From Acidobacteriota bacterium (GTDB lineage Bacteria; Acidobacteriota; Terriglobia; Terriglobales; Acidobacteriaceae), in contig JAJZAL010000285.1 in the NCBI GenBank assembly GCA_021799405.1, forward strand, positions 1-6,266: DNA of 6,266 bases, given 5' to 3'. The notes under the pieces were generated by a model that was not told where the DNA came from, ran no database searches, and saw nothing but the letters and a program-made list of their open reading frames with translations. Made by a program: the position numbers and the translations under genes. Below are positions 1 to 6,266 of this stretch, piece after piece. Positions within the stretch are counted from its first letter, which is position 1, and each line of letters starts with the position of its first letter.

Positions 1-579
1 CGAAGCGGCACCCGCGGCAACCCCATCCACAGTGCTCGCTCTCATGGCTTTCTGACCTTGCCTTGCGAGCAGATACTCCTGCTCGGTGGCCACAAGATCG
101 GGGCTGTAGACCGTAAACAACGGCTCGTCCTTATGCACATATTGATAGACCGCATTCACGAATACCTTGCGAATGTATCCGGGGAAGCGCACTTGAACAT
201 ACGAAATCAGGCGTTGGTCAATATCGACATTTCCAGTAGCACGCACGTCGTTGTCCAGGTTTCTGTATTCAACCTTGCCAACCTGTACGCCGATGCTCTG
301 CATACGCTGGGGCGAGAGTTGAATGGGCGTCAATGCCGATTGCGGCTTGGAAGGTAAAGTTGCGCCCGCCGATGATCCAGTCGTGTCAGGCGTAGACGTT
401 GACGTAGCCGCTGGACCTGTCGTCGGGCCTTCTGCTACCGGTTGCACCTCCGTTGAGATGGGTAGGTTCGCCTTTCGACGATTGGAGGTTTTATGTTTGA
501 GGTATAAGAACAATCCGCTCAGCGCGATGATCAGTACGCCAAACCATACAAGTGAAGTGCGGACAACGTATTTGTTCAT
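1..579 (-). CDS. CusB-type RND efflux periplasmic adaptor (HlyD/MFP family), 5' part only
   Basis: This is the N-terminal 193 residues of a membrane-fusion protein; the frame is open to the window edge, so the C-terminal half is missing. Such adaptors link an inner-membrane RND pump to an outer-membrane channel and in CusB-type members also bind the exported metal. Residues 8-27 are one hydrophobic anchor. Residues 37-82 form a Ser/Thr/Pro/Ala-rich linker. From about residue 88 the CusB-type beta-barrel/lipoyl region begins, with ATGNVDIDQR (114-123), RFPGYIRKVFVN (131-142) and LFTVYSPDLVATEQEYL (154-170); the last matches the YSPELV.AQ.EYL signature of CusB-like proteins. The ATG at 579 lies inside the stop of the upstream channel gene (ATGA overlap), implying translational coupling, and AGGAG sits 10 bases upstream (590-594). 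No Met-rich metal site is visible in the retained part. The family is secure; copper/silver rather than Zn/Co/Cd is an inference. Confidence 0.9.
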   Translation of the reverse strand, partial: MNKYVVRTSLVWFGVLIIALSGLFLYLKHKTSNRRKANLPISTEVQPVAEGPTTGPAATSTSTPDTTGSSAGATLPSKPQSALTPIQLSPQRMQSIGVQVGKVEYRNLDNDVRATGNVDIDQRLISYVQVRFPGYIRKVFVNAVYQYVHKDEPLFTVYSPDLVATEQEYLLARQGQKAMRASTVDGVAAGAAS

Positions 580-1838
580 CGCAGTGTTGCTCCTGTCAGG
601 GTTTCCAGATGTGCAAGTACAGTCTCGTGGTCAGCTAACACCTGGGCTTCATCGAGCTTCATGTCCAGCACGTTGACGAAGTAGAGAAGCACGTGTGTCA
701 TGACATCGCGATTGCTGGCGTAAGAACTAAGAGTGGAACGGTAGGCGGCAATCGACTGCGGAATCAGCCCTTCCCGGTATTCCCTCAGAAGCTCCTCGTC
801 GTTCGTCACCTTTACATAGCCTCGCTGCACCTGCGCAAGTTGTTCTTGCAGATGCGAATCCAGCTCTTCCTTCGATTGCGCTAGCATTTCCGCAGCCTCG
901 GCCACCTTGGCATGGAAGCGCCGTCTTCGATGGAAATGGATATTGAGCGTGAACATGTAATAGTCGGGATACTTTCGGTCATTCTGCTGCCACATGTATG
1001 CCAGACCAAAGTCCGGTTTGCCGTCTCGTTTGGCCGAAGCCAATGCGGCATTCTTTTCTTTGACCGAACTGGCATCTACCTGTATTTGCGGATTCTGCCG
1101 ACGCACCAATTGCAATAATTCAGCGGAGGCAAGCCGCAACGGATGCTCTTCTAAAGGTTCAGCGATAATGTCCGGCGAGTCCTGATCCCGGTGCAGCAGG
1201 CCCTTCAGCTCTGCTTCGGTATCGCCTCTTTCCTCGTTGTTCAGGGTAATCTCCCGCAATATTTTTGTGCGCTCCACCTGTGCCTGCAAGACATCTGCCT
1301 GCGATCCCTGGCCAACTGCATAGTGAGCCGTCGCATCCTGAATCAACTGGTCGAGCACCTTCTCGTTCTCTCTCAAAATGACGAGGGTCTTCTGCAAATA
1401 CGCCAGACGGATATAGTCCACTTTGACTGCGTCGGCGACGCTGTCCATCGTCGCATCGAGATCCGCCTGCTTCACGTCAGCCGCTCGTTTGGCTGTTTCG
1501 CCGCGTAACCGCAGTTTGCCCGGATACGGCAGTTCCTGCGATGCGCCAATGCCGATGTAAGCAAAATTGCTGGTGGTATAACCGGCGAATGGTCTGGGGC
1601 TGCCAACGCTCAAGTTCTGGTAAGTGAAGGTTGGGTCGGGCAGCGTGCTGACCTGGCGTGGAACCTGTTCCGCAGCCCGCCAGGCATCATTCGCGGTCTT
1701 TATTTCTGAATTATTCCGGCTGGCCTCAGCCAGAAGGCTGGCCAATGGTGTAGGCGTGCTCGTCACCGGAGTCTGCCCAATGGCAGAAACCGCTGTGGTG
1801 AGCACAAGGGTAATGGTCAACAAAGAGACCATGGTCAT
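576..1838 (-). CDS. TolC/CusC-family outer-membrane efflux channel
   Basis: This 420-residue protein is of normal length for the outer-membrane factor family (two OEP repeats), which forms the trimeric channel of tripartite efflux pumps. Residues 1-19 are a signal peptide with probable cleavage after VSA. There is no lipobox Cys, unlike E. coli CusC, which is acylated. Family features include PDPTFTYQ, the QELPYPGKLRLRGE segment before the first long helical hairpin, GQGSQADVLQAQVERTKI at the helix turn, and a second repeat beginning near QNPQIQV and KPDFGLAYMW. I chose the ATG at 1838 because GGAG (1846-1849) lies 7 bases upstream of it. The upstream TTG at 1844 would have only one base between it and that site, and the ATG at 1832 would be 13 bases from it. 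The stop overlaps the adaptor start by four bases. With the adaptor, this points to RND heavy-metal efflux; the substrate is not determined by this gene. Confidence 0.92.
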   Translation of the reverse strand: MTMVSLLTITLVLTTAVSAIGQTPVTSTPTPLASLLAEASRNNSEIKTANDAWRAAEQVPRQVSTLPDPTFTYQNLSVGSPRPFAGYTTSNFAYIGIGASQELPYPGKLRLRGETAKRAADVKQADLDATMDSVADAVKVDYIRLAYLQKTLVILRENEKVLDQLIQDATAHYAVGQGSQADVLQAQVERTKILREITLNNEERGDTEAELKGLLHRDQDSPDIIAEPLEEHPLRLASAELLQLVRRQNPQIQVDASSVKEKNAALASAKRDGKPDFGLAYMWQQNDRKYPDYYMFTLNIHFHRRRRFHAKVAEAAEMLAQSKEELDSHLQEQLAQVQRGYVKVTNDEELLREYREGLIPQSIAAYRSTLSSYASNRDVMTHVLLYFVNVLDMKLDEAQVLADHETVLAHLETLTGATLR

Positions 1839-1845
1839 ACACAAG

Positions 1846-1933: not shown

Positions 1934-2320
1934 CTAAATTCTTAGAACGGAAATCGAACCGGGCGGGGATTGTGGAAGAGAAGAGCCGATGAGTTCGACT
2001 GGCGTGGACGACGTAAGAAAGCGTGGCCCCGGCAGCACCTTCGATGCAACGGTTAATGCGTCAAACTTCGCGATATTCGAGTTGAGAGCATATTCGTCGA
2101 CAGAAGGAATAGCGTTACGAACTGACGCGCGAGTATTCTGGCAGCAACTGCGGGAAACCGGCATGTTGGCTCCGCCGCACTGCCCCATCATAGCGCGACA
2201 ACATGCACGTTCCTGAACATTCAACTGCGCGCCGGGCATCATGCATGCTGCTGCTGGCGACAGATAGGACACCAGCAGCAAGATGAGAACACCGGCATGG
2301 CGAAGACCAGACATTTCCAT
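1934..2320 (-). CDS. Small exported Cys/Met-rich protein heading the efflux operon
   Basis: I do not recognise a named family. The 128-residue protein begins with a signal peptide (residues 1-25: basic Arg-His, a LILLLV core, cleavage after AAA). The mature N-terminus is unusually rich in Cys and Met: C26, M27, M28, then CCRAMMGQCG (40-49) and a further CC at 59-60. The rest is polar and ends in a Pro/Ser-rich tail, SPPGSISVLRI. The location (periplasm or outer surface) and the soft-metal ligands suggest capture or sensing of Cu(I), Ag or similar for the downstream pump, but this is inference. It lies 95 bases ahead of the channel gene on the same strand. The start is uncertain: the ATG at 2320 gives a textbook signal peptide but has no clear ribosome site, whereas a TTG at 2353 has GGAAG 6 bases upstream (2360-2364) and would add 11 residues. 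The ATG at 2314 is also possible. Confidence 0.7.
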   Translation of the reverse strand: MEMSGLRHAGVLILLLVSYLSPAAACMMPGAQLNVQERACCRAMMGQCGGANMPVSRSCCQNTRASVRNAIPSVDEYALNSNIAKFDALTVASKVLPGPRFLTSSTPVELIGSSLPQSPPGSISVLRI

Positions 2321-2353
2321 CGCTAGACTAAATTGAATTTGCGAGAGAAGCAA

Positions 2354-2834: not shown

Positions 2835-2863
2835 TTGACAAATAATACACTATATAGTGTATA
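2835..2863 (+). promoter_or_regulatory. arsR-type promoter with an 18-bp palindromic operator
   Basis: TTGACA (2835-2840) is a perfect -35 box. At the ideal 17-base spacing lies TGTATA (2858-2863), a plausible -10. The perfect palindrome ATACACTATATAGTGTAT (2845-2862) fills the spacer and runs into the -10, where a bound repressor would block RNA polymerase. ArsR/SmtB repressors bind AT-rich inverted repeats in this position, so autoregulation is the natural reading. The predicted transcript start (about 2870) is almost on the ATG at 2872, and no Shine-Dalgarno sequence precedes it, so the message may be leaderless. No second copy of the palindrome was seen upstream of the minus-strand operon. 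Confidence 0.78.
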
Positions 2864-2871
2864 AGTGAAAT

Positions 2872-3249
2872 ATGCAGACGATAGCGCCACGTCAAGCCCG
2901 CGCACCAAAGTGCCCGCCCAAACCGGCCATTGAAGATCGGTTGCTCATCGACCTGGAGCAGGCGAACTCGGTGGGGCGGACTTTTCAGGTTCTCTCCGAT
3001 CCGACGCGGCTGCGCCTGCTGCATGCGCTGGTCAGGGCGGGCGAGATGTGTGTCTCGGACCTGGCTCGCGCCGTGGGAATGAAACCGCAGGCCGTGTCGA
3101 ACCAACTACAGCGATTGTTGGACAGGGGTATCGTCGCGACCCGTCGCGACAGTAATTATGTGCACTATCGCATCGTAGATCCCTGCGTCGTAGGATTGCT
3201 CGATCTCGGCATCTGCCTGGCGGAGGATGCGCGGAAGCAAAAGCAGTGA
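2872..3249 (+). CDS. ArsR/SmtB-family metal(loid)-responsive repressor
   Basis: This 125-residue protein has the normal family length. The winged-helix fold is clear: LSDPTRLRLLHAL (41-53), the sensor-helix segment EMCVSDLA (58-65, the ELCVCDL-type position with a single Cys60), the recognition helix KPQAVSNQLQRLLDRGIV (71-88), and the wing RRDSNYVHYRI (91-101). Members of this family repress metal-resistance genes until metal binding releases them from DNA. The candidate ligands are Cys14, Cys60, Cys105 and Cys115. In the last helix D103-x-C105-x9-C115-x2-E118 resembles the SmtB alpha-5 site (Asp-x-His...His-x2-Glu) with both His replaced by Cys, which suggests a thiophilic metal or metalloid rather than zinc. 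The start is set by the promoter immediately upstream. The stop overlaps the next gene by GTGA, so it leads that operon. The exact inducer cannot be read. Confidence 0.93.
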   Translation: MQTIAPRQARAPKCPPKPAIEDRLLIDLEQANSVGRTFQVLSDPTRLRLLHALVRAGEMCVSDLARAVGMKPQAVSNQLQRLLDRGIVATRRDSNYVHYRIVDPCVVGLLDLGICLAEDARKQKQ

Positions 3250-4418
3250 AGGCAGCGTTGCCACAACTCGATACGCTCGCTCTGAACGAAGCGGTGGGTC
3301 AGCTGCACGAGGCGGCAGCCGCTAAAAAGTGCGCGCCGTGCGGATGCCTGCATGGTGCCCTGCGGGCGATCGAGCAGTCCTTTCCTGCAGGCGAGCGGCC
3401 TTCCGATCTGGATGAGGCCGTCCGGTCTGCCCGCGAACATACGACGCAGCAGAAGTATGAGTGCCTGGGCTGCCAGGTCTGCTTTCCTGCCAACGCATTG
3501 AACGCCCTCCAGGTGGAGGGTGATACCTGCCCAACCGAGCCGGATGAGGAACGGGCTGGATGGCCTCCGCTGCCGGGTGATTTCAAGGTTATTCGCTACG
3601 GCGCGCCGGTAGCGGTCTGTGCGTTGAACAGCACGGAGCTGATGAAAACCCTTACGGAAGCCAGGCCGGACGGCCTTGCCATTGTGGGAACAATGCATAC
3701 GGAGAACCTTGGCATCGAGCGCGTGATCAGGAACACTCTGGCCAATCCGAACCTCCGCTTTCTGGTGATTTGCGGAACGGACACACAGCAGACAGTGGGC
3801 CATTTGCCGGGACAGTCGCTCCATTCGCTGTTTCAAAACGGGTTGGACGAAAAAGGCCGCATCGTGGGAGCCAAAGGAAAACGCCCTGTCCTGAAGAATG
3901 TGACCCGCGAGGAAGTGCAAGCGTTCCTCGCGCAGGTGGAGCCGGTCTCGATGATCGGCGAAGAGAACCCGGCGACGGTTACGGAGCAGATTACCGCGTG
4001 TGCGAGGCGCGATCCGGGAATTTACCCCTGGCCGGCGGGGACAGTTTCGGTGGAGCGCATCCGCGCTCGGGCGCCACAGCGGTTGACACTCGATAAGGCG
4101 GGCTACTTTGTGGTGTACCCCGATGCACGCAGGCAGGAGTTGATGGTGGAGCACTACTCCAACCAGGGCGCGTTAGATTGCGTGCTGGAAGGCAATTCGC
4201 CCGCGTCCCTGTACAGCGAAGCCATTGAACGAAAGCTACTGACCCGGCTGGACCATGCCGCATATCTTGGACGCGAGCTGGCCCGTGCCGAACAATCTCT
4301 AAAAACGGGTGAACCCTTCGTACAGGACAAAGCGCCCGGCGACGAAGAGGCGACGGAAACAACGCACACGAGTTGCGGCTGCGGGTCCGGCTCGTGCATT
4401 GGGAGTACGAATGACTGA
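3246..4418 (+). CDS. MtrA-like corrinoid-domain protein with DUF4346 and Cys-rich ends
   Basis: This 390-residue soluble protein has no membrane segment. Residues 20-80 carry two Cys clusters, C29-x2-C32-x-C34 and C73-x2-C76-x2-C79, which could hold an Fe-S cluster or a metal. Residues 106-260 match subunit A of the methanogen tetrahydromethanopterin S-methyltransferase (MtrA): WPPLPGDF, PVAVCALNS, HTENLGIERVI, NPNLRFLVICG, GHLPGQS, NGLDEKGRIVGAKG. His186 in GHLPGQS falls where MtrA has the His84 that binds cobalt of its corrinoid. Residues 278-366 look like DUF4346: LDKAGYFVVYPD, ELMVEHYSN, and TRLDHAAYLGRELARAEQSL through to FVQD. The tail holds C377, C379 and C384. The start is GTG at 3246, overlapping the regulator stop (GTGA), with GGAAG 9 bases upstream. 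Known MtrA is membrane-anchored and part of an eight-subunit complex, none of which is seen here. A corrinoid methyl-transfer role under metal control is an inference; the substrate is unknown. Confidence 0.88.
   Translation: MKAALPQLDTLALNEAVGQLHEAAAAKKCAPCGCLHGALRAIEQSFPAGERPSDLDEAVRSAREHTTQQKYECLGCQVCFPANALNALQVEGDTCPTEPDEERAGWPPLPGDFKVIRYGAPVAVCALNSTELMKTLTEARPDGLAIVGTMHTENLGIERVIRNTLANPNLRFLVICGTDTQQTVGHLPGQSLHSLFQNGLDEKGRIVGAKGKRPVLKNVTREEVQAFLAQVEPVSMIGEENPATVTEQITACARRDPGIYPWPAGTVSVERIRARAPQRLTLDKAGYFVVYPDARRQELMVEHYSNQGALDCVLEGNSPASLYSEAIERKLLTRLDHAAYLGRELARAEQSLKTGEPFVQDKAPGDEEATETTHTSCGCGSGSCIGSTND
4401..4405 (+). promoter_or_regulatory. Ribosome binding site deciding the start of the two-CC-pair gene
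   Basis: GGGAG is 5 bases before the ATG at 4411, inside the end of the upstream gene. The longer in-frame start at 4309 would add 34 basic residues encoded within the upstream gene and has no comparable site. Confidence 0.6.
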
Positions 4419-4743
4419 CAGAAGTCTATGTTGCACGTTGAACCAGCCCCCGGAGATCGCGCGTCGGGGCAGCTTGCTGAAGACTTTGTACGAATCAACC
4501 CTGGAACGCCGCGAAATGGAACATGGCTTTGCCTTTCGATTCAACGGCGACGCGGCGACGGAGCGAAAAGTGTTTGAGTTCATCGCAATGGAACGGGACT
4601 GCTGCCGGTTCCTCTCCTTCCAGTTAAACCTGGCCGCGGAACGCGGATCGATCTGGCTGGCAGTGGAGGGCCCGGATGGCGTGAAGGAATTTGCTCGCGC
4701 CGAGATGGGAAGATTTGGTCTGCATGGCATAGCAGCCTCGTAG
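4411..4743 (+). CDS. Small cytoplasmic protein with two vicinal Cys pairs
   Basis: This 110-residue protein has no signal peptide or membrane helix. It carries CC at 7-8 and CC at 64-65, the latter in FEFIAMERDCCRFLSFQL (56-71...), followed by IWLAVEGPDGVKEFARAEM (81-99). From memory, small proteins with an ER-x-CC-x-F-x-x-F core and a GPEGVKEF-like end occur beside ArsR- or MerR-type regulators; I know no assigned function. Vicinal thiols suit binding of As(III), Hg(II) or Cd(II), so a soluble metal(loid) carrier or chaperone is a reasonable guess. It overlaps the upstream gene by 8 bases, consistent with coupled translation. The start at 4411 is supported by GGGAG 5 bases upstream. Confidence 0.83.
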   Translation: MTDRSLCCTLNQPPEIARRGSLLKTLYESTLERREMEHGFAFRFNGDAATERKVFEFIAMERDCCRFLSFQLNLAAERGSIWLAVEGPDGVKEFARAEMGRFGLHGIAAS

Positions 4744-4891
4744 ATCGCAATGATCGCGCCCACGGCACAACTCAGCGGCGAATCGCAGGGCAAGCCATTG
4801 GCCGGCAATCCCTGGAAAGCACAGAACGAAGAAAGTACATCTGTCATTTTTATGCTGCGGGAGGGTTTCCGCTGCTGCAAAGAGGTAACGC
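4744..4891 (+). other. 148-base gap inside the operon
   Basis: This is the only sizeable gap in an otherwise overlapping gene string. A frame opening with ATG at 4750 runs through it into the next gene but has no ribosome site and no recognisable protein pattern. No terminator hairpin or clear promoter was found. It may be spacer, a decayed gene, or a site of mRNA processing. Confidence 0.4.
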
Positions 4892-5299
4892 GTGAAGACA
4901 CGCTGGATCGGAATTCTTTTCATAGTTGTCGTGGTGGCCGGAATCATCGCGTTGAAGCTGCACAGCGAGCCGCGAGCTGCGGCTCAAACCGCGCAAGCAG
5001 GTTCGTCGGCGACGCCGCAGGTGATTCTTGTCGCCAATTTGCGCGAGGCGAATGATAAGGGCGACAACTGCTCGGTGATCATTCATCTGGTTCGGGACGC
5101 GGGTGCGCATGGAATCCGGATTCGGGAGCTCTCTGCCGGCAGCCCGTCTCCGCTGATCAAGCGGTATCACGTCCTGACCATTCCCACTCTCCTGGTGCTT
5201 CATCGCGGCAGGGTTGTTTCGCGTTACGAAGGAGAAAGCCAGTCTACAGTTCAGAAGATTCGAACCCGGTTGGCCAAACTTGAAGAGGCCCAGTCTTGA
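4892..5299 (+). CDS. Membrane-anchored thioredoxin-fold protein with a single Cys
   Basis: This 135-residue protein has a short basic N-terminus and one hydrophobic helix (residues 6-22), so the domain should face the periplasm. The body reads as a thioredoxin fold: VILVANL strand (44-50), the active-site region GDNCSVIIHLVRDAG (57-71), then RYHVLTIPTLLVLHRGRVVSRYEG (91-114) with the cis-Pro loop TIPT (97-100 region, P98). The normal CxxC appears as G57-D58-N59-C60, leaving Cys60 as the only Cys of the protein. It could therefore act as a monothiol reductant/isomerase or a metal-thiol carrier rather than a classical disulfide reductase. The start is GTG at 4892, with AGAGG 6 bases upstream (4881-4885). 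It overlaps the CcdA-type gene by TTGA, and CcdA proteins feed electrons to just such periplasmic thioredoxin-like partners. The fold is likely; the Cys alignment is a by-eye judgement. Confidence 0.8.
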   Translation: MKTRWIGILFIVVVVAGIIALKLHSEPRAAAQTAQAGSSATPQVILVANLREANDKGDNCSVIIHLVRDAGAHGIRIRELSAGSPSPLIKRYHVLTIPTLLVLHRGRVVSRYEGESQSTVQKIRTRLAKLEEAQS

Positions 5300-6009
5300 C
5301 ATCCTTGCTGAATCAACTGACCCACGACTTATCCGGCAGCAGCGTTTTGGCGATTCCTGTTGCGCTGGTGGGCGGCGCCATCGCCTCGCTGTGCCCTTGT
5401 TGCCTTCCTTTGTATCCCGCCGCCGCGGCAACCTGCAGCAGTGCAAGGGAGTCAGACTGCGGTTGTTGCGGGCCGCAGATGCCCATCGCGAAACGCGGCC
5501 TCGCTAATTCTGTAGCCTTTGCTCTTGGGATGGCGGTCGCCATGGCTCTGCTCGGCATTGTGGCGGCGCTCGTAGGACGAATTGCGACGGCGGGTGACTG
5601 GCTTCGATATGTGGTGGCGGTTATCCCACTGTTAATGGGCATGCACATTCTTGGGTGGTTGCGATTGCCGCTGCCTGCATTTTCCATCAAGGAGTCTCGG
5701 TTTCAGGCAACAGGCGCATTCGGCATTGGCTTTCTACTCTCGCTGGTGATCGCTCCCTGCGGAACCCCGATACTGGCGGCCGTGCTTTCCTACGCTGCCA
5801 TCAAGGGAAACACGCTATATGGCGCTCTGCTCCTATTCGCATATGGTGTTGGGGCGGGGATTCCACTTTTGATTGCAGCCAGTGCGAGCGGCCGCATCGC
5901 GGGATGGTTGGATCTTCGCGGCTACCGGAAATGGGTGGATAGAGCGACAGGCGCGCTGCTGCTGGGACTGGGCTTTTACCTCTGTAAGCGTGGGAAGGTT
6001 CCCTGTTGA
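5296..6009 (+). CDS. CcdA/DsbD-type transmembrane thiol-electron carrier
   Basis: This 237-residue protein has six predicted membrane helices (about 16-45, 70-95, 101-121, 139-168, 174-198, 214-230), the usual CcdA layout. The family moves reducing equivalents from cytoplasmic thioredoxin across the inner membrane to periplasmic thiol proteins. The two redox sites are visible: PCCLPLYPAA in helix 1 (C35/C36) and APCGTPILAAVLSYAA in helix 4 (C155). Extra Cys residues are unusual: C33, then C47, C55, C57 and C58 in the loop after helix 1, and C230 and C237 at the C-terminus. The start is TTG at 5296, overlapping the previous stop (TTGA), with GAGG 7 bases upstream (5285-5288). Its likely partner is the single-Cys thioredoxin-fold protein encoded just before it. 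The metal-operon context suggests delivery of electrons for metal(loid) detoxification rather than cytochrome c maturation, but this is inference. Confidence 0.88.
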   Translation: MTSLLNQLTHDLSGSSVLAIPVALVGGAIASLCPCCLPLYPAAAATCSSARESDCGCCGPQMPIAKRGLANSVAFALGMAVAMALLGIVAALVGRIATAGDWLRYVVAVIPLLMGMHILGWLRLPLPAFSIKESRFQATGAFGIGFLLSLVIAPCGTPILAAVLSYAAIKGNTLYGALLLFAYGVGAGIPLLIAASASGRIAGWLDLRGYRKWVDRATGALLLGLGFYLCKRGKVPC

Positions 6010-6067: not shown

Positions 6068-6266
6068 TTAAGCGGCTGATGCTGGCTCTGCTTGGAGGCT
6101 TGCAGCCATGTTCGAGGGCAGGAGTTCGTCGATGCGATGGATGGGATGATCGGCGATCTGAGCCAGCACCGTGCGGAGGTAGAGCGAGGGATCGAGTCCG
6201 CAGAGTTTGGCGGTGCCGATGAGAGTGTAGAAGGAGGCCGCGCGTTCGCCGCCGGAATCGGCGCCG
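6068..6266 (-). mobile_element. IS66-family transposase, C-terminal end only
   Basis: The minus strand encodes 65 residues in an open frame running off the window edge, ending with TAA at 6068-6070. The segment contains the IS66 C-terminal element pattern: GGERAASFYTLIGTAKLCG, LDPSLYLRTVLAQIADHPIH and RIDELLPSNMAA. This is close to the family form GTAKLNGLDPEAYLR...RIADHP.NRIDELLPWN, with Trp replaced by Ser. The IS66 DDE catalytic residues lie upstream, outside the window. The gene converges on the CcdA-type operon, which it appears to border rather than interrupt. Whether the element is intact cannot be seen. Confidence 0.88.

Follow-up and report, generated by a model that had tools for sequence, protein, structure and literature searches.

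What does a corrinoid-type protein resembling a methanogen subunit do in a bacterial operon that opens with a repressor of a metal(loid)-sensing family and closes with thiol-redox membrane proteins? The question is raised by a 6,266-nucleotide stretch of an Acidobacteriota genome (assembly GCA_021799405.1, contig JAJZAL010000285.1; hereafter the window), for which a preliminary description had suggested corrinoid-dependent methyl transfer to or from a metal(loid), with electrons or thiols supplied across the membrane by a CcdA/thioredoxin pair. The window probably holds an operon induced by metalloids, and the best explanation that we can offer, tentative as it is, is a metalloid-induced corrinoid protein moving a methyl group to, or less likely from, antimony or arsenic. 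The earlier suggestion gains from the AntR-type regulator and operator and from the retained cobalamin residues described below; the methyl-transfer step itself is one that we infer.

The operon and its AntR-type switch

The elements of the operon are the following:

2835-2840, forward strand: TTGACA, the -35-like hexamer of the operon promoter, read from the sequence
2845-2862, forward strand: AntR-type operator ATACACTATATAGTGTAT, downstream of the -35-like box and ahead of the start codon
2872-3249, forward strand: ArsR-family repressor of AntR type, 125 residues (open reading frame list, Pfam, NCBIfam)
3246-4418, forward strand: MtrA-DUF4346 corrinoid-type protein, 390 residues, GTG start
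4411-4743, forward strand: small cysteine protein, 110 residues, a lineage-specific accessory with no Pfam or NCBIfam match
4892-5299, forward strand: monothiol protein of thioredoxin fold, hydrophobic at the N-terminus, with a single conserved cysteine
5296-6009, forward strand: CcdA/DsbD-type thiol electron carrier with an extra cysteine-rich loop, TTG start

The five co-directional genes of the preliminary description were recovered from the open reading frames and domain matches, as were its three overlaps: GTGA between the ArsR and MtrA genes, eight bases between the MtrA and small cysteine protein genes, and TTGA between the thioredoxin and CcdA genes; a 148-base gap without overlap separates the small cysteine protein gene from the thioredoxin gene. 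Judged by sequence, the assemblage is an AntR-type repressor with its operator, a corrinoid-type MtrA, a monothiol thioredoxin-fold protein and a CcdA, with relatives in ars and ant contexts.

The repressor matches the Pfam HTH_5 domain (1.1e-12), and its closest solved structure is 6uvu_A (E = 2.8e-39, residues 9-123), the runner-up in the PDB being SmtB at 1.6e-15. It shares 59.8% identity with plasmid genes annotated as the antimonite-responsive repressor AntR, and the plasmid AntR of locus L085 differs from the aligned 6uvu sequence by one residue. C105 and C115 of the window protein align with C103 and C113 (6uvu numbering), the two C-terminal cysteines of AntR, which we take to be its antimony ligands. 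Within the AntR-type cluster (n = 35), C105 is kept in 35/35 and C115 in 34/35 sequences, C14 in 29/35 and C60 in 27/35. By homology over the whole length, both C-terminal cysteines and an operator in common with antR, the window regulator and its operator are of AntR type.

The operator palindrome departs from TTACAC-N6-GTGTAA at two positions, and its 14-base core is matched with up to three mismatches once in the window, shuffled versions averaging 0.07 matches (14/200 with at least one). At up to two mismatches the motif occurs in 33/43 AntR-type promoters, those of the window and of plasmid antR among them, a count that is descriptive because the consensus was derived from palindromes in these promoters; the plasmid antR site, with one mismatch, stood outside that palindrome set. 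The CVC-type ArsR promoters have it in 0/31 cases at this threshold and in 1/31 at three mismatches, and the background at two mismatches is 440 of 20,000 260-base stretches drawn at random from the same loci, with the true sites left in. Loci from separate searches (L087, L091, L110/L131 and others) were fetched after the consensus had been set: perfect operators precede AntR-MtrA-OB-c11 in L087 and AntR-MtrA-MerT-like in L110/L131 (the L131 MerT being over the Pfam cut-off), and AntR-OB-c11-MtrA in L091 has one at two mismatches. An AntR-type regulator with an operator at two mismatches is also found, without MtrA, on a Massilia plasmid from tungsten-mine tailing (L086, 5971-10571), where the further genes encode two products unmatched in Pfam, an OB-like protein (recognized by eye), an ABC permease and ATPase, and a DsbD_N protein.

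A four-gene core around a corrinoid-type protein

The MtrA-like protein, with 3,103 relatives among the 7,999 candidates scored, consists of a seven-cysteine N-terminal domain (residues 1 to about 100), an MtrA domain (103-264), DUF4346 (282-361) and a cysteine-rich tail. Pfam returns MtrA (PF04208, 3e-43), PterinBD-DUF4346 (7.2e-22) and, at E ≤ 1, only a weak DUF7528 besides, with no CFeSP-type domain as in HgcA. The NCBIfam model NF002128, named after the methanogen subunit, scores 696 bits against a cut-off of 568, and TIGR00284 (dihydropteroate-synthase-like) scores 50.9 bits, under its cut-off. The cobalt-ligating histidine, the glutamate and the nucleotide-tail residues of MtrA (His84, Glu54) are all present: H186, E153, T152, N154 and G156 recur in 92/92 aligned sequences, a figure that is partly built in because 24 genome-scan rows of the alignment were gathered with the peptides TENLGIER and GHLPGQ, two tested motifs. 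N163 is likewise invariant, and the cobalamin histidine and glutamate are each kept in nine of ten distant MtrA forms. We consider it very likely, from these residues, that the protein binds a corrinoid. None of the MtrB-H partners was found by Pfam or NCBIfam among the nine window products scanned.

Its partners differ in how widely they are kept. The small cysteine protein has only 16 homologues, in which C64 and C65 are invariant and C8 nearly so, and it is therefore best seen as an add-on of this lineage; the five-gene order put forward earlier is thus not conserved as such, and the conserved core is, by sequence comparison, the four genes for ArsR, MtrA, thioredoxin and CcdA. The thioredoxin match of the fourth product is weak (0.03, under the Pfam cut-off); for L059, a relative belonging to a different cluster, the value is 1.7e-7. 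Its C60 is present in 19/19 members of its cluster, and in four aligned relatives (P0008, P0015, P0057 and P0062) MtrA and the thioredoxin protein form a single polypeptide, with the latter at the end. The last product matches DsbD_TM (1.9e-20; 73.5 bits against a cut-off of 27.1) and the CcdA structure 5vkv (4.9e-8), and its C36 and C155 are each retained in 29/30 members of its cluster, by which it is a predicted thiol carrier of the CcdA family. An ArsG-type permease for aromatic arsenicals was considered for this protein and rejected (NF040495, 33.3 bits against a cut-off of 200); a literature search on ArsEFG returned nothing relevant.

A scan of one genome per species yielded 116 relatives; by record title, the loci span Acidobacteria, Proteobacteria, Verrucomicrobia, Planctomycetota, Myxococcota, Nitrospirae, Chloroflexi and others. 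The best 80 loci, the plasmid locus L081 and the window form a tally of 82, from which the window is left out for counts over 81; the plasmid loci L082-L084 and the MtrA-less L085-L086 stand outside it, and all counts rest on profile searches over six frames. A same-strand ArsR gene lies at most 1.3 kb upstream of MtrA in 64/81 loci (including L064, with a weak ArsR of 32 bits, and L020, with a weak same-strand match of 55 bits and a divergent AntR-type gene), which, together with the thioredoxin-MtrA fusions, argues that the arrangement is not due to chance. Downstream of MtrA we found thioredoxin and/or CcdA in 32 loci, an OB-protein/c11 membrane protein pair in 18 (L026 and L028, with only a distant DsbD-like gene, being counted here), OB/FtsX/ABC genes in 5, DJ-1 in 3 and none of these in 23. 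The order ArsR-MtrA-Trx-CcdA recurs in 26/81 loci (L012, with its CcdA gene in pieces, and L043, where a contig end cuts CcdA, are included). Half of the ordered loci (13/26) carry an extra gene between ArsR and MtrA: V4R in five, MerC in five and an SMR pair in three. The V4R-domain genes in this position are those of L002, L005, L006, L041 and L053, and the L006 domain resembles the methanogen regulator MsvR (34.7 bits, under the cut-off). MtrA-DUF4346 also occurs on four plasmid records, one from Paraburkholderia and three from Planococcus; L082 and L083 are small mobilizable Planococcus plasmids that carry it with a P-type ATPase, an HMA-type cation transporter and ArsR.

Further samples were searched from Acidobacteriota, Planctomycetota, Nitrospirota and Desulfobacterota. 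Apart from the AntR-type loci given above, they contained CVC-ArsR-MtrA-Trx-CcdA loci (L088, L089, L095), loci of mixed or absent context (L090, L092, L111-L128) and loci already in the set (L093, L094, L109). Several copies of MtrA lie within ars operons. L130 is a contiguous run of an ArsE-type thioredoxin, ArsR, ACR3 (453.8 bits against a TIGR00832 cut-off of 282.8), an MtrA without the N-terminal and DUF4346 domains, and an ArsP_1 permease; L129 has a short MtrA between ArsR and Trx-CcdA, adjoined by an ArsP_1 permease, a DGC protein and an ArsE-type thioredoxin. L168 is ordered ArsR-ArsP_1-ArsE-type Trx-MtrA-ACR3-Trx-CcdA (ACR3 at 464.2 bits, over the TIGR00832 cut-off), and L167 has the same gene set on the other strand, MtrA being preceded by three additional genes. 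At its C-terminal end, the L168 MtrA carries the iron-sulphur (FeS) domain PF04060 (47.6 bits, cut-off 23), which also scores 49.9 bits with the acetyl-CoA decarbonylase/synthase gamma subunit, under that model's cut-off. ArsP_1-family permeases were recognized near MtrA by Pfam in L129, L130 and L168 and by our own profile in L166, L167 and L173; the three scored with NCBIfam all fall under the named-family cut-offs.

Among the Desulfobacterota, PF04208 was over its cut-off in 18/297 genomes, and 19 regions were fetched from 21 match rows, leaving out that of G032 (the genome of L040) and that of G1055 (under the cut-off). Ten of the 19 have an ArsR, ArsP_1, OB or c11 partner, in a sample whose independence is incomplete, since G036, the genome of L047, contributed three regions. 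In L011, MtrA-CcdA adjoins a small cysteine-rich gene and a P-type ATPase that is 59.6% identical over 629 residues to the neighbour of plasmid antR. A relative of AntC was sought in that small gene and dropped: the profile had contained both small proteins, making its score meaningless, BLAST at 1e-3 gave no match, and the likeness is one seen by eye only. Genes for ArsM-like S-adenosylmethionine (SAM) methyltransferases, under curated cut-offs, were seen near MtrA in L047 (6794-7402) and L174 (3624-4238).

As to the co-occurrence with ars, mer or cobalamin genes that the preliminary description proposed to examine, ars operons include MtrA in L130, L167 and L168, and a mer-type cluster gene (MerC, MerT, MerP or MerA) is found in the fetched flanks of 17/81 loci, weak MerT-like ones included. 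B12-binding domains over the cut-off (45/49 host genomes) say little, since control genomes score alike (12/14).

Proposed methyl transfer and the competing readings

Under the proposed mechanism, antimonite, arsenite or a methylarsenical would bind the repressor cysteines and so open the operon. The MtrA protein would carry a base-off/His-on corrinoid, whose cobalt might be kept reducible by the seven-cysteine N-terminal domain, an iron-sulphur or thiol site in this view; the FeS domain may do likewise in the ars-operon relatives. With the soft metalloid presented by the cysteine-rich tail, CH3-Co(III) would give up its methyl group to Sb(III) or As(III), and the methylated product would exit as a volatile or through a permease. 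Reducing equivalents or thiol exchange outside the membrane would come from the CcdA/thioredoxin pair, a role that the OB-protein/c11 or OB/ABC modules could fill in other genomes.

MtrA-bound methylcobalamin methylates Sb/As in vitro, and this, together with the ArsP_1 permeases that accompany the ars-operon forms, favours methylation over demethylation. Both grounds are weak, and we therefore place methyl transfer to a metalloid at a little under an even chance. More speculative is the wider picture of a widespread, horizontally moving resistance system in which a dedicated MtrA-type corrinoid protein, switched by antimonite or arsenite and equipped with an iron-sulphur or thiol domain of its own, would methylate antimony and arsenic without SAM.

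Several observations weigh against such a role, beside the partly built-in invariance of the cobalamin residues. The seven-cysteine domain has no match among solved structures, no methyl-donor enzyme (MtrH- or MetH-like) is encoded among the window products, and nine sources scanned gave no Rfam family at gathering score, the cobalamin riboswitch included. In 29/82 loci the ArsR is of the other, CVC type, without the AntR-type operator, and the thioredoxins of the ars operons (L129, L168, L173) have a CxPC pair as opposed to the single cysteine of the window protein. RND pumps, P-type ATPases and mer genes also occur near MtrA loci, so that context alone does not pin the metal. Nine of the 19 Desulfobacterota regions have no metal partner, and at three Desulfobacterota loci (L162, L163, L169) another form of MtrA is paired with a gene of about 150 residues, the L163 copy of which has no Pfam match. 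In the Nitrospirota, ArsR adjoins MtrA in three (L129-L131) of the ten regions fetched. Five full-length copies there (336-345 bits; L132-L135, L138), three-domain MtrA-DUF4346 proteins, lie upstream of parA-parB genes (identified by eye), and metal genes were not seen at these loci, which suggests that the ancestral role may be unrelated to metals; L136 and L137 have neither ArsR nor parA-parB beside MtrA. The non-metal contexts indicate that the MtrA family is wider than the metalloid operon, and recruitment to it is a conclusion from context.

It is unlikely that the operon serves efflux or trafficking without methyl transfer, its cysteine-rich domains binding Sb(III)/As(III), the corrinoid acting as redox partner or scavenger and the thiol proteins detoxifying. 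The conserved cysteines of the partner proteins would suit that role, as would the variable downstream slot (CcdA, c11, OB/ABC) with MerC, SMR or V4R genes added elsewhere, and MtrA is absent from the AntR-type operon of the Massilia plasmid, which does have OB-like, FtsX/ABC and DsbD_N genes. However, in L129 and L130 the N-terminal and DUF4346 domains are missing while the MtrA domain is kept, and there is hardly any variation among its cobalamin residues.

Less likely again is transfer in the opposite direction, with cob(I)alamin on MtrA demethylating methylarsenite or methylstibine and ACR3 or an AntA-type ATPase exporting the inorganic product. ACR3 does share an operon with MtrA in L130, L167 and L168, the FeS and seven-cysteine domains suit a Co(I)-forming protein, and in L052 a glyoxalase-family gene (read as ArsI), an ArsC-type gene and an ACR3-cluster gene, named by our own reading, adjoin MtrA; the ArsP_1-family permeases near MtrA nevertheless fit export of a methylated product, although three are under the NCBIfam named-family cut-offs.

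A corrinoid methyl carrier of one-carbon metabolism switched on by metalloid stress, for example to spare methionine synthesis, is improbable. DUF4346 is common to dihydropteroate-synthase-like proteins (the TIGR00284 match under its cut-off), Nitrospirota relatives adjoin parAB, and, according to a passage of PMC7857596, MtrA is the predicted source of the methyl groups that MesA accepts in methanogens. Against this stand the tightly packed operons that include ACR3, ArsP_1 and an AntA-like ATPase, and a distribution unlike that of a housekeeping gene, with full-length matches in only 7/297 genomes of the L001 phylum, none of them over the NF002128 cut-off, and copies on four plasmid records.

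A mercury system, with MtrA replacing MerA or making methylmercury as HgcA does, has MerC-family genes between ArsR and MtrA in seven loci (one Pfam-scored copy over the PF03203 cut-off), AntR-MtrA-MerT in L131, the mer-type flanks of 17/81 loci and, in a passage of PMC10349881, the likewise ArsR-like regulator of hgcAB in its favour. We dropped mercury as the leading metal, and consider this reading very improbable, because the genome-level link is confounded (MerA over the cut-off in 17/49 host genomes against 16/297 L001-phylum genomes mixes phyla and habitats, and within the latter sample MerA occurs in 1/7 genomes with a full-length MtrA match) and because regulator and operator are of AntR type; moreover, no Mer gene (MerA or transporter) is among the window products scanned, and the in-operon MerC of L058 is under the NCBIfam MerC cut-offs. 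The mer-type flanks may still point to a mercury role for other members of the family.

Known systems and the neighbourhood of the operon

Every component family has been described before; what is new is their combination and the likely substrate. In the ant operon (Comamonas, with a copy on an Enterobacter plasmid), the regulator is about 60% identical to that of the window and has in common with it both C-terminal cysteines and the operator, and the L011 ATPase beside MtrA is the 59.6% identical counterpart of the plasmid one. Unlike the window, the plasmid operon consists of antR, a 62-residue cysteine-rich gene and a P-type ATPase (the latter two presumably those named AntC and AntA), without corrinoid protein, thioredoxin or CcdA. 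MtrA of the methanogen methyl-tetrahydromethanopterin:coenzyme M methyltransferase has the same domain fold, cobalt-ligating histidine, hydrogen-bonding glutamate and nucleotide-tail residues, whereas the window protein is bacterial, adds the seven-cysteine domain, DUF4346 and the cysteine tail, and stands under a metalloid-type regulator without MtrB-H. The corrinoid domain of HgcA is of CFeSP type. HgcAB resembles the system as a corrinoid protein methylating a thiophilic metal under an ArsR-like regulator, and an FeS domain is fused to MtrA in one scored relative (L168); the window differs in its MtrA corrinoid domain, its partners and the metal expected. In ars operons that encode ACR3 and ArsP-family permeases, the methylating enzyme known is the SAM-dependent ArsM, and L130, L167 and L168 are such operons with MtrA included; to our knowledge, a corrinoid protein in ars operons has not been described. 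Searches of openly licensed PMC papers found no operon with this gene set and no mention of DUF4346.

According to a passage of a 2021 review (PMC8453088), the genes and enzymes for antimony methylation are unknown. If the operon methylates antimony or arsenic, it would name a gene for that step, supply the missing genetic basis of bacterial antimony methylation as an arsenic/antimony counterpart of HgcA, add a second corrinoid fold to metal methylation and account for a large family of bacterial proteins whose present name comes from a methanogen subunit. As the family reaches cultured strains, among them Methylomonas methanica NCIMB 11130 (L041) and Anaeromyxobacter oryzae Red232 (L018), each with an ArsR of CVC type, the question is directly testable.

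The operon is flanked in the window by the following:

1-1844, reverse strand: genes for a CusB-like membrane-fusion protein (truncated at the window edge) and for an outer-membrane protein of TolC type
1934-2353, reverse strand: an open reading frame of 139 residues, cysteine-rich and with a hydrophobic stretch near its N-terminus, that matches no family and lies between the operon and the efflux genes
6068-6265, reverse strand: the C-terminal element of an IS66 transposase (PF13817), immediately beyond the end of the operon and facing it

The CusB-like and TolC-type genes are divergent from the operon and form part of a heavy-metal RND-type efflux system.

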